A stretch of DNA of 64,000 nt, taken from an uncultured Sphingomonadaceae bacterium. Its GTDB lineage: Bacteria; Pseudomonadota; Alphaproteobacteria; Sphingomonadales; Sphingomonadaceae. The notes under the pieces are model-generated. The model was not told the DNA's origin and did not search any database. It saw nothing but the letters and a program-made list of their open reading frames with translations. The stretch covers positions 434,001-498,000 of the forward strand of contig CANLSQ010000001.1 of assembly GCA_947493955.1 (NCBI GenBank). Direction: 5' to 3'. This document shows, piece after piece, positions 14,254 to 16,850 of this stretch (position 1 is its first letter; the number at the start of each line of letters is the position of its first letter). The position numbers and the translations under genes are program-made.

Positions 14254-14769
14254 GTGGACCAGTTTGAAATCGAAGCCGAGCGTGTTGCAAAACTGACTGA
14301 GAAGCAGCGTGAATGTCTGCACCTTGTTGTCTTACGAAAATCATCAAAAGAAATCGCCCGGATCTTGAACATATCCAAACCAGCTGTTGATCAGCGGCTG
14401 GATAGCGCCCGACGGACGCTAGACGTGGCAACGCGTGATCAGGCCGCAATCGTCTTTGCACGGGCCGCTGGCGACTATGATCGGATCATATATGATCCGG
14501 CCTATCTTCCATCCGAACCCGATCTGGCTGCAAAAGCAAGTCAGGGCGAACAAGCAGAGTCGTTCATGTTGGAAGAAGCAGCCGTACCATACGACTTCAA
14601 TTCCACACATGAATCGAACCTTTGGTTGCAAGCCCTGAAGGAACCGAGCGGCGATCTTGGAACCGTTCAAAGACTGGCCATCATTGTGGGCATGACTGTC
14701 GGCATTTTGGCAATTGTCTTGATCGGACTAGCCGTCTCTCAGTCTCTTTCAGGTCTGCTGGCCGCGTAA
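14254..14769 (+). CDS. LuxR-type HTH protein with C-terminal membrane anchor
   Basis: This 171-residue protein begins with a LuxR/GerE-type helix-turn-helix at about 12-60: LTEKQRECLHLVVLRKSSKEIAR, given here as LTEKQRECLHLV and SSKEIARILNISKPAVDQRL. An unstructured acidic middle follows, and a single membrane helix near 145-168 (IIVGMTVGILAIVLIGLAVS). The DNA-binding domain would lie in the cytoplasm, held at the inner membrane. The start is GTG with GGGGGTAA upstream. This HTH/TM protein next to a RadC-like gene recurs in sphingomonads. Its signal and targets are unknown. Confidence 0.8.
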   Translation: MDQFEIEAERVAKLTEKQRECLHLVVLRKSSKEIARILNISKPAVDQRLDSARRTLDVATRDQAAIVFARAAGDYDRIIYDPAYLPSEPDLAAKASQGEQAESFMLEEAAVPYDFNSTHESNLWLQALKEPSGDLGTVQRLAIIVGMTVGILAIVLIGLAVSQSLSGLLAA

Positions 14770-14833: not shown

Positions 14834-15169
14834 ATGTCTTACGAAATCAAAAAAGCCAAAGACCAAATCGGCCAAGATATGCCGCACACGGAATATAGTA
14901 TTGATCAGGCACTGGTCTCTGTTTCAGACCTTATGTCGACATTAGTTAAAGCCCGCTTGAGCACAGGTGTTCCTGCGTCCACGGGCCAGGCTGCCATTCT
15001 GCGCCTCGCCAAAGCACAAATGGCTCTTGTGGATGCGAGCAGCGACGTGTTGCGCGTGCATGGCGAGCTGAAGAAAATCGGTAAAGAATATGCTGGTTAT
15101 GGTGATGAAACCTGCCCTCCTGCCCAAGCAGCCAAGAAAGATGACGCTCACCTTTCAATTGTCGCTTGA
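14834..15169 (+). CDS. Hypothetical small helical protein
   Basis: This 111-residue protein has no recognised domain. The body looks alpha-helical: SIDQALVSVSDLMSTLVKAR at about 22-41, then QAAILRLAKAQMALVDASSD and VLRVHGELKKIGKEY. Together these suggest two or three amphipathic helices. It ends in a short polar tail. AAAGGGAATGTT precedes the ATG. It follows the HTH/membrane gene by 64 bases on the same strand and is probably in the same transcription unit. Its helical pattern may mean a partner-binding role, but nothing more can be said from sequence. Confidence 0.65.
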   Translation: MSYEIKKAKDQIGQDMPHTEYSIDQALVSVSDLMSTLVKARLSTGVPASTGQAAILRLAKAQMALVDASSDVLRVHGELKKIGKEYAGYGDETCPPAQAAKKDDAHLSIVA

Positions 15170-15216
15170 TCGACCGAGAAGTTGACTAAAATGCGCCATC
15201 ATGTTCCTTGTGGAAA

Positions 15217-15657
15217 ATGCGAATTGCAATTTTCTATGTCTTGTTCGTTTCGTGCACACTCTACGCTCTCTGGCGTGGAGGTGCACCGGAACGTGCCGTC
15301 GCAGGTTCATATTTTGCAATTTGGTTATTGGATGGGACCCTCAATCTTGCCTATCCGGCAGATTTTGCGGACATGGATCCGATCCACCTGGCTATTGATA
15401 TCCTCATTTGGTTATCATTTTTTGCGGTGGCAATGCGAGCGAAAAGGTTTTGGCCGCTATGTTTAGTGTCATTGCAAACAATAGCACTGGTGGCGCATTC
15501 GGCGAAATTCATGGATGTATCTATTGCTCCCAGAGCATATCTCACGATGCAGATTGCTTCTTCTTTTCCGGTGCTGATTCTAATGGCTATCGGTACTTAC
15601 TGCCATCAGCGCAGATTGAAGGCCAATGGCTCCGATCCAGCTTGGCGCGGCAAGTAG
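15217..15657 (+). CDS. Conserved sphingomonad inner-membrane protein
   Basis: This membrane protein of 146 residues has about four hydrophobic helices (near 3-20, 28-45, 58-75 and 118-135). It starts MRIAIFYVLFVSCTLYALWR and ends with a charged tail that includes CHQRRLKANGSDPAW. That tail pattern, RRL-K-x-x-G-x-DP-x-W, is one I associate with a conserved sphingomonad family of unknown function. The ATG at 15217 is chosen because the sequence before it is not typical of the family. Its 3' 225 bases are half of a tandem duplication; a dead second copy lies at 15713-15940. Confidence 0.7.
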   Translation: MRIAIFYVLFVSCTLYALWRGGAPERAVAGSYFAIWLLDGTLNLAYPADFADMDPIHLAIDILIWLSFFAVAMRAKRFWPLCLVSLQTIALVAHSAKFMDVSIAPRAYLTMQIASSFPVLILMAIGTYCHQRRLKANGSDPAWRGK

Positions 15658-15996
15658 CATCGGCTTTTTCGGGAAAGACGAAGTCATTAATTTTAACGGG
15701 TGACCTTCAATGGCTCTCCAAGCCAAGGAAGTCAGACCTTAATGTCTAGTCTCACAGCAAATAACGGCGCGGATCGCGCGTTTGGCAAAACCGATGGATG
15801 TGTCAACACACCTGCAGGTATATTTCACAATGCAGGCCGCCTTTTCCTGTCCCTTGCTGACAACGTTAGCGATCGGAGCCTGCTGCCGTCAGCTGAGATT
15901 GAAGACATACGGGACCGATCCATTCTGGCTGAGCTCATAAAGTCGGTCGCTCCTGAGAAGGCTGTCGTGCTGTCTGATGCACTGTTGACCGAGTTT
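15430..15996 (+). repeat. Diverged tandem duplication, unit about 283 bp
   Basis: Bases 15474-15646 align without gaps to 15757-15929 at an offset of 283, about 65% identical by hand count. Longest runs include CAGATTGAAG versus GAGATTGAAG and CCGATCCA in both. Protein-level similarity in the membrane-protein frame extends the match left to about 15430/15713. The offset is not a multiple of three, so the two copies present different frames to the two real genes. Confidence 0.8.
15713..15940 (+). pseudogene. Remnant of membrane-protein C-terminus under the RadC gene start
   Basis: Read in the frame of 15713, the second duplicate copy gives ALQAKEVRP, a stop, CLVSQQ, then QITARIARLAKPMDVS and AIGACCRQLRLKTYGTDPFW before a TAA at 15938-15940. 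This matches the end of the membrane protein at 15217-15657 (AMRAKRFWP, CLVSLQ, AKFMDVS, AIGTYCHQRRLKANGSDPAW). The internal stop and missing upstream part make it a pseudogene. It lies wholly under the first 66 codons of the RadC-like gene, in a different frame. Confidence 0.75.
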
Positions 15997-16509
15997 GGTT
16001 CAATTGGCCGGATATTATCGGAATCAGAAGAAGCTTTACGGCGTGTACTAGGGTCGCATGACGCCGTGATCAATTTGCTGATGGCTGCTGAAAAGCTATT
16101 CACAGCGCAATTGCAAAATGGCCTGCCGAAAAAGCTGGTCTCGGCAACCGACAGCAAATTGATCAACTATCTGCAAGGCAGCATGGGATCGCTGGCAAAT
16201 GAAACCATGCGGGTCTTGTTTCTGGATAATGCCAATCATCTGCTAAAGGATGAGGAGCTGGGGACCGGTTCGCCGAACAAGATTATTGTGCCGCCGCGGT
16301 CCATATTGAAACGGGCTCTGGAACTGAACGCCTGCGCGATAATTTTAGTGCATAACCATCCCGCTGGTGATCTCAAGCCTAGCCAATCCGATATAAAATT
16401 CACCATGCTGATCAAAACCATATGCCGAGAATTGGAAATCAAATTGCACGATCATATCATTATTGCGGGCAATCAGTGGTCAAGTTTTCGCAAGATGAGG
16501 TTGCTATGA
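15742..16509 (+). CDS. RadC-like JAB/MPN domain protein
   Basis: This 255-residue protein has a RadC-type layout. A helical (UPF0758-like) N-terminal part runs from about residue 60: SILAELIKSV, then SDALLTEFGSIGRIL. The JAB metalloprotease-like domain follows, with HNHPAGDLKPSQSD at about 204-217, the HxHP...SxxD zinc-binding motif. Despite the name, RadC's role in repair is unproven. AAGGAAG lies about 10 bases before the ATG. The first 60 or so residues do not look like RadC and are read from DNA derived from the neighbouring membrane-protein gene in another frame. It overlaps the next gene by ATGA. Confidence 0.85.
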   Translation: MSSLTANNGADRAFGKTDGCVNTPAGIFHNAGRLFLSLADNVSDRSLLPSAEIEDIRDRSILAELIKSVAPEKAVVLSDALLTEFGSIGRILSESEEALRRVLGSHDAVINLLMAAEKLFTAQLQNGLPKKLVSATDSKLINYLQGSMGSLANETMRVLFLDNANHLLKDEELGTGSPNKIIVPPRSILKRALELNACAIILVHNHPAGDLKPSQSDIKFTMLIKTICRELEIKLHDHIIIAGNQWSSFRKMRLL

Positions 16510-16850
16510 CCGATCCCATATTGGATAATCACGTAACCCGGGCCCAGCGGTTTTTGGCCATGCAGCGAGAGAGAAGCCTGTTCTTTTCCAATGATGGGAT
16601 ATTTGGTGATCCCGCTTGGGAGCTTTTGCTCGAAATATATATTGCGACAGAAAAGCAGGAGTGCATTTCCAGGGACGAATTGTTCGCTGAACTATCAACC
16701 ACGCCTGCCATAGCATCGCGCTGGATTTCGGTATTTTTTGACCGTCAATATGTGGCCGAGTGTGAAGGGCAGGGAGCTGACAATATCCGCATGACAGACA
16801 GTGCGAGAAAGGCTTGTGTCGCCTATCTCGATTCTGTGATGAATCTTTAG
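16506..16850 (+). CDS. Small winged-helix-like protein coupled to RadC-like gene
   Basis: This 114-residue protein starts at an ATG overlapping the RadC-like stop codon (ATGA), so translation is probably coupled. It looks helical, with PAWELLLEIYIATEKQECIS, then RDELFAELSTTPAIASRWIS and a DSARKACVAYLDSV end. The layout resembles a MarR-like winged helix in which ISRDELFAEL...ATASRWI would be the HTH, although the recognition helix is degenerate. A DNA-binding role is possible. It is the last member of the plus-strand HTH/RadC cluster. Confidence 0.65.
   Translation: MTDPILDNHVTRAQRFLAMQRERSLFFSNDGIFGDPAWELLLEIYIATEKQECISRDELFAELSTTPAIASRWISVFFDRQYVAECEGQGADNIRMTDSARKACVAYLDSVMNL

Follow-up and report, generated by a model that had tools for sequence, protein, structure and literature searches.

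The locus described here lies in a window of 64,000 nucleotides, the whole stretch of DNA that was analysed, and all of the features given below are on its forward strand. I searched the 31 other genomes of the genus and found the locus in 20 of them, as the top RadC matches adjoining a membrane-protein gene; one of these 20 loci, that of genome G013, is further removed, with 38% in its membrane protein. The window's own type of locus is hereafter referred to as class 1. Paralogues were also compared, namely 12 paralogous membrane gene-RadC pairs (class 2), 18 stand-alone membrane genes without RadC nearby, and a class of four in which the RadC start is uncertain.

The upstream member of the cluster (14254–14769) encodes a predicted helix-turn-helix protein of the sigma-70 region 4 or LuxR type (Pfam Sigma70_r4_2, 3.9e-9). 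A homologue is present in 19 of the 20 other loci (all except G013), in 6 of the 12 class-2 pairs and in 17 of the 18 stand-alone membrane genes. It is followed, directly 5′ of the membrane gene, by the gene for a 111-aa protein (14834–15169), for which no family match was found in Pfam, NCBIfam, PADLOC or PHROGs, and which has a homologue in 19 of the 20 other loci, although that of G029 is limited to residues 1–38.

The membrane-protein gene itself (15217–15657), referred to as copy 1, is a divergent allele; it is full-length, and encodes a protein of 146 amino acids with four hydrophobic peaks. Its homologues place the start at the ATG at 15217, not at the TTG at 15208. About 35 nt 5′ of this start, and also before orfX (see below), a TTGAC motif is found at 15182–15187. 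Of the 23 copies compared, 22 have it at the equivalent position and one, copy 2 of G006, has TTAAC instead; the motif might be a −35 promoter element or lie within a binding site.

Two further open reading frames cross this gene. The first, orfX (15191–15466), occupies the +1 frame of the membrane gene's 5′ half, and overlaps by 8 nt an internal ATG of copy 1 at 15459. This ATG opens the second, the relay ORF (15459–15749), which is in the frame equivalent to that of RadC, stays open for 96 codons, and in turn overlaps the RadC ATG by 8 nt. Between the stop of copy 1 and the RadC start is a spacer (15658–15741), with an AAGGA ribosome-binding-like site and few traces of the membrane gene. In what was once the membrane frame of copy 2, a TAA (15740–15742) overlaps the RadC ATG as TAATG, and next to it lies copy 2, a remnant of the 3′ end of a membrane gene (15743–15940), which is now read as the RadC N-terminus.

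The RadC-like gene (15742–16509) encodes a JAB-domain protein of 255 amino acids, with canonical RadC homology from residue 53–55. Here the homologues point to the ATG at 15742 as the start, not the GTG at 15700. The protein matches PF04002 (2e-37, 128.3 bits, model positions 5–119 of 121) and the RadC family of NCBIfam, with 134.3 bits for TIGR00608 against a cut-off of 133.85, and by these matches it belongs to the RadC family (PF04002/TIGR00608). Its score for the equivalog model NF000642 is 152.6, under the cut-off of 180.

The last gene (16506–16850) overlaps the RadC stop by 4 nt (ATGA), and encodes a 114-aa protein with a homologue downstream in G013 and in 15 of the 19 closer loci (absent in G011, G006, G029 and G025). 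No family match was found in NCBIfam, PADLOC or PHROGs, and that it may be a helix-turn-helix protein is my own reading of it. The cluster of RadC-like JAB protein, membrane protein, sigma-like helix-turn-helix protein and two small proteins is kept in most loci. I considered a defence system, and rejected this reading: PADLOC gave no match for the RadC-like, membrane, 111-aa or 114-aa proteins, and PHROGs gave no support. For the sigma-like protein, PADLOC returned a single match, at the level of the helix-turn-helix (CARF3, E 5e-4).

Overlap of the membrane and RadC-like genes

In all 20 other loci, the RadC ATG is found at the same place within the membrane gene, on the same strand and in the +2 frame, and the membrane frame stops 196 or 199 nt past it. 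The overlapping membrane gene is full-length in 18 of these, and is a truncated second copy in G011 and G031. The 12 class-2 pairs fetched also overlap without exception, by 199–232 nt. Over the shared DNA, both frames are open and conserved in 20/20 other loci and 12/12 paralogous pairs. The RadC-equivalent frame is open throughout the classes that include RadC (21/21, 12/12, and 4/4 in the class whose RadC start is uncertain), and in 4 of the 18 membrane genes without RadC nearby. That the ancestral state was a same-strand overlapping gene pair, which the preliminary description had raised from the window alone, is now well supported by this comparison of the junction across genomes.

In other genera of the family, RadC homology begins before the membrane stop in 6 of the 11 best-scoring membrane loci that were fetched, so that the arrangement looks old.

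Several loci stood out during this survey. In L103, L104 and L106, all from other genera, the RadC frame is open 508–520 nt back from the membrane stop, and apparently spans the membrane gene entirely, the RadC core homology entering it by 64–88 nt. Another genus of the family has four membrane-gene homologues in a row, about 0.5 kb apart (G168, contig 1, 2918061–2920112). The G029 locus (L047) combines a RadC gene with an internal TGA, the partial match to the 111-aa protein mentioned above and five stops in the +1 frame, and is perhaps a decaying version.

The membrane-gene leucine or isoleucine codon that supplies the RadC ATG is TTA or CTA in 20/20 loci, and TTA or ATA in 12/12 class-2 pairs; these are minor codons in the ORFs of the window, where TTA and CTA together account for 8.3% of leucine codons and ATA for 16.2% of isoleucine codons. 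An arginine codon ending 11 nt 5′ of the RadC ATG is AGA or AGG in 15 of the 20 loci and in all 12 class-2 pairs, against a usage of 11.5%, and I read it as Shine-Dalgarno-like, part of a putative ribosome-binding site. RadC codons 2–47 contain no in-frame ATG, GTG or TTG in any of 21 loci (class 1 and G013, the window included), and in five of these 21 this extends over codons 2–85. A TTG is present at codon 48 in 13 of the 20 other loci, and absent in the remaining seven and in the window. In the class-2 pairs there is a second start codon, at codon 3, and in two of the 12 another at codon 34.

The match to known RadC models sets in at residue 53–55. A profile of the first 53 residues, run against 249 genomes of the family, gave strong matches at this locus only: at the RadC start in the five sampled genomes of the genus that have it and, in the window genome, at copy 1 as well. 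A further ten matches were weak (E 0.002–0.009). Hence I read the first ∼53 residues as an overprinted extension, translated from DNA that also codes, or once coded, for the membrane protein. The preliminary description had arrived at a similar view. Its placing of the RadC start inside copy 2, in a different frame, holds, while the 60 or so overprinted residues that it gave are reduced to about 53.

The repeat and the origin of its two copies

A tandem unit of about 283 bp had been reported between 15430 and 15996. At an offset of 283, 156 of 283 positions are identical (55%), against 19–29% when 16 neighbouring offsets were tried. Aligned locally, 15459–15646 and 15742–15929 score 121, where the maximum was 37 in 2000 dinucleotide shuffles and 44 among 2965 random window pairs. 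The repeat at this offset is therefore real, but identity is weak beyond about 15440–15650, and the similar part covers ∼190–200 bp, not the whole 283. Tandem Repeats Finder made no call at the repeat, and a repeat-family search returned just short families of 21 and 32 nt; the repeat is too diverged for such programs, and was therefore aligned directly. The frames were as first described: in the equivalent frame, copy 2 still yields the membrane C-terminus, interrupted by one stop close to its beginning, and neither copy has a stop in the RadC-like frame.

I then asked which frame each copy obeys, by polarising derived changes against 12 close relatives, including the truncated second copies of G011 and G031 (and leaving out G013, G007, G029, G010, G016, G012, G025 and G003). 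Most of the tests in this work were devised post hoc, with the data already seen. In copy 2, derived changes at membrane codon positions 1/2/3 number 3/16/11, compared to 37/30/66 over the 12 relatives (Fisher P 0.0014). Of its 30 derived changes, 17 are synonymous for RadC (10.3 expected, P 0.004) and 10 for the membrane protein (8.0 expected, P 0.25), the membrane frame being unconstrained, and the RadC-frame excess holds within codons 2–33 alone (11/19, P 0.009). In the 3′ part of copy 1, 18 of 28 changes are synonymous for the membrane protein against a null of 6.3, indicating purifying selection on that frame, and 5 of 28 are synonymous in the RadC frame (null 8.1). Membrane third positions gave no significant sign that copy 1 had been released from the RadC frame (Fisher P 0.11).

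The identical test on six other overlapping copies gave no RadC-frame excess (among them 0/11 in G009, 2/15 in G028 and 5/12 in copy 2 of G017; G014 has zero changes by construction), so that amino-acid selection on the RadC N-terminus is seen in copy 2 of the window only. Selection on the second frame is otherwise visible in the conserved codons at the RadC start. Third-position constraint within the overlap is modest, with a 4-fold difference of 0.51 compared to 0.61, lower in 76 of 105 pairs. That the window species has escaped the overlap, copy 1 obeying the membrane frame and copy 2 the RadC frame, is well supported by the patterns of change in the two copies.

The 19 kb around the locus are mostly ∼95% identical to G024, G027 and G014 (0.83–0.99 per 500 nt aligned), but in the two bins spanning 15001–16000 identity to these genomes drops to 0.68–0.74. 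Copy 1 instead resembles the upstream copy of G011 (82% in the protein), with which it groups in the tree (support 97/91 for protein, 99/97 for DNA). A tree uniting copies 1 and 2 of the window, as expected from the simple tandem duplication of the preliminary description, is rejected by the AU test (P 0.00085); that part of the description is not sustained. A tree placing copy 2 with G024, G027 and G014 also fits worse, at a borderline level (P 0.054). The first bases of copy 2 are closer to G006 than to G024, and its later half is like G024; from this later-half likeness and from its place, copy 2 is probably the resident gene.

G024, G027 and G014 also differ from one another at this spot. 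In four consecutive 75-nt bins, covering the end of the 111-aa gene and most of the 5′ half of the membrane gene, they are mutually 0.51–0.63 identical (37–49% different), in flanks that are 0.84–1.00 identical and mostly above 0.92. The membrane gene thus appears to act as a hypervariable cassette open to exchange. My guess is that the hypervariability reflects an interaction that is under diversifying pressure. The corresponding hypervariable spot of the window is 15046–15720, the same place as in these three genomes. Duplicated forms of the locus are also found: G006 and G017 have two full membrane copies in one common arrangement, and G011 and G031 have one full and one truncated copy, with junctions that differ from each other and from that of the window.

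These observations suggest a model in which membrane alleles would be swapped by recombination at this spot, with new alleles arriving upstream. The resident membrane gene would then erode to the part pinned by RadC, its 3′ end having to stay because RadC starts inside it.

Three other explanations bear on the overlap and on the copies. In an ordinary local tandem duplication within the window lineage, the second copy would simply decay, and RadC would use the leftover DNA as its start. This would produce similarity at a fixed offset, and tandem full copies do occur in G006 and G017; the long, relaxed branch of copy 2 could moreover bias the AU test. It is however at odds with the finding that copies 1 and 2 are not sisters, copy 1 grouping with that of G011, and with the fact that the flanks match G024, G027 and G014 where copy 1 does not, and I consider such an origin quite improbable. 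An ancient origin at the base of the group, by tandem duplication with later differential loss and occasional gene conversion and no import of a divergent allele, has somewhat more in its favour, since upstream and downstream copies exist in five genomes and G006 and G017 share their arrangement. The copy 1s nonetheless do not form one clade, those of the window and G011 falling in a supported group with the single overlapping genes of G014 and G028 and with copy 2 of G006 and G017, and loss alone does not account for the divergence among G024, G027 and G014 inside such similar flanks; this scenario appears unlikely. The overlap might, lastly, be a start-codon misprediction, with RadC starting near residue 48–55 and little of it overprinted. 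In a published survey of bacteria, all 715 co-directional overlaps over 60 bp were judged to be annotation errors (PMC2478687), and the TTG at codon 48 would provide such a start in 13 of the 20 other loci. But this codon is missing in the other seven and in the window, five loci are startless over codons 2–85, the upstream ATG and AGR codon are conserved, and the RadC-frame selection in copy 2 is found within codons 2–33, all of which makes misprediction very improbable.

An open +1 frame and a proposed relay to RadC

The +1 frame of the 5′ half of the membrane gene contains no stop in any of 21 full-length class-1 copies, a count that sets aside G013 (3 stops), the truncated second copies of the window, G011 and G031, and G029, whose RadC carries a TGA and which is the exception among the closer genomes, with 5 stops. 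The same frame is open in none of the 34 paralogues (0/12, 0/18 and 0/4), with class averages of 4.4–5.2 stops, and in the class-1 3′ half, past the RadC start, it holds 6.9 stops on average. Permuting synonymous codons within each gene leads to an expectation of 2.3–4.3 stops, with a probability of 0.002–0.062 per gene of finding none; the genomes share descent, and these per-genome probabilities do not multiply. The amino acids of orfX are about as conserved as those of a control frame (mean z over 183 distant pairs of 1.65, against 1.33), and its start codons are mixed among copies.

In 21/21 loci, a stop in the third frame, at +5 to +7, makes for an overlap of 8 nt with the RadC ATG; this is the geometry of termination-reinitiation, an upstream stop overlapping a downstream start. 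The stop is also present in the copy 1s of the five duplicated genomes, and random synonymous choice yields it in 8–37%. A long ORF ends at this stop in the intact class-1 loci, and a short one in G029 and G013.

All five duplicated genomes have kept the internal ATG of copy 1. From there the RadC-like frame is open for 95–170 codons, through a spacer with no stop in this frame in any of the five, and it ends each time with the same 8-nt overlap at the true RadC ATG. The offsets between copies are 283, 292, 280, 505 and 505, all 1 mod 3. Such retention may reflect the youth of the copies: other leucine columns keep the relative's TTA or CTA in 33 of 107 comparisons, and AGR codons elsewhere are kept in 42 of 93. 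For the copy 1 stretch alone, the chance of staying open is 0.29–0.47 per genome.

This geometry fits a proposed second lane, in which ribosomes travelling on orfX would feed RadC: they would end at the 8-nt overlap, and restart at the RadC ATG. In the duplicated genomes, the internal ATG of copy 1 and the relay frame would carry the lane on to the real RadC start, in the order orfX, relay ORF, RadC, by termination-reinitiation. Together, orfX and the relay ORF, which the preliminary description had not noticed, would thereby offer a reason for the open RadC-like frame of copy 1. The membrane gene would be threaded over its full length by a second lane, whose +1 part has amino acids free to drift and hands ribosomes to RadC; an allele swap would split the overlap while the relay is kept, and this splitting upon arrival of a new allele would amount to subfunctionalization, with one frame per copy. 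I regard this proposal, subfunctionalization included, as plausible, if still a little short of probable.

The stop-free +1 frame could instead be a fast-evolving third gene, or a by-product of the composition of the membrane protein, and not a relay. Either would touch the lane only, and is compatible with the overlap and the escape from it. A third gene would be consistent with the start codon found at −268/−271 in 18 of 19 copies (ATG in 15, GTG in 2, TTG in 1; the count omits G029, G013 and the second copies of G006 and G017), but less so with amino acids whose conservation is close to that of the control frame. As for a by-product, the amino-acid make-up of class 1 does by itself reduce stops, yet permutation of each gene's own codons still gives 2.3–4.3 where the 21 copies have none. 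I find this alternative doubtful. Two other candidates were rejected. One was readthrough of the 111-aa stop into orfX. Many loci have this stop in frame with orfX, but the codon itself varies among TGA, TAA and TAG, and in other loci the frame is open past it. An antisense gene behind the open +1 frame was also considered; in the class-1 5′ half the three antisense frames contain 1.5, 1.6 and 4.1 stops on average, and are stop-free in 29%, 10% and 0% of copies, so that none of them accounts for it.

Taken as a whole, the explanation by a gene overlap, an escape from it, an exchange of membrane alleles and a second lane feeding RadC appears probable.

Relation to known overlaps and gene families

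Among the titles and opening lines of abstracts in the open PMC literature, I found no paper on this overlap, on an overlap split by a second copy, or on such a relay. The overlaps of the survey cited above are likewise formed by two same-strand genes in different frames, conserved across species; none of its 715 co-directional overlaps over 60 bp is accepted as real, and its longest real case under this limit is one of 56 bp (PMC2478687). The present overlap differs in its length, 196–199 nt (199–232 nt in the paralogues), and in the selection on the downstream frame that follows the escape. It is longer than the real cases of the survey, and has independent support from its position, from the choice of codons and above all from the natural experiment of the second copy, which frees each frame, selection switching with it. 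Since the locus offers a graded series, from overlapping genes through two full copies and a truncated second copy to separated genes, it would allow the cost of an overlap to be measured, and the way in which it gets undone to be followed.

Coupling by termination-reinitiation at short overlaps is known, and one account counts 8-nt overlaps among them (PMC10666635). The present locus is similar in the overlap between an upstream ORF's stop and the start that follows. Unlike the usual coupling, this upstream ORF would lie in the +1 frame of a third gene, its amino acids drifting, and would be relayed via a duplicate. A +1 frame that is stop-free and unconserved suggests that selection may act on the travel of ribosomes rather than on the protein made.

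The RadC-like protein shares with its family the RadC/JAB domain and canonical homology from residue 53–55, but differs by its ∼53 extra N-terminal residues, which have no strong match outside the genus among the 249 family genomes. In this respect the locus resembles known cases of overprinting and de novo coding, where a new coding sequence arises from an alternative frame of an older gene. It differs from these in that the new sequence would be a same-strand extension of a known enzyme family, later parted from its parent frame by a second copy.
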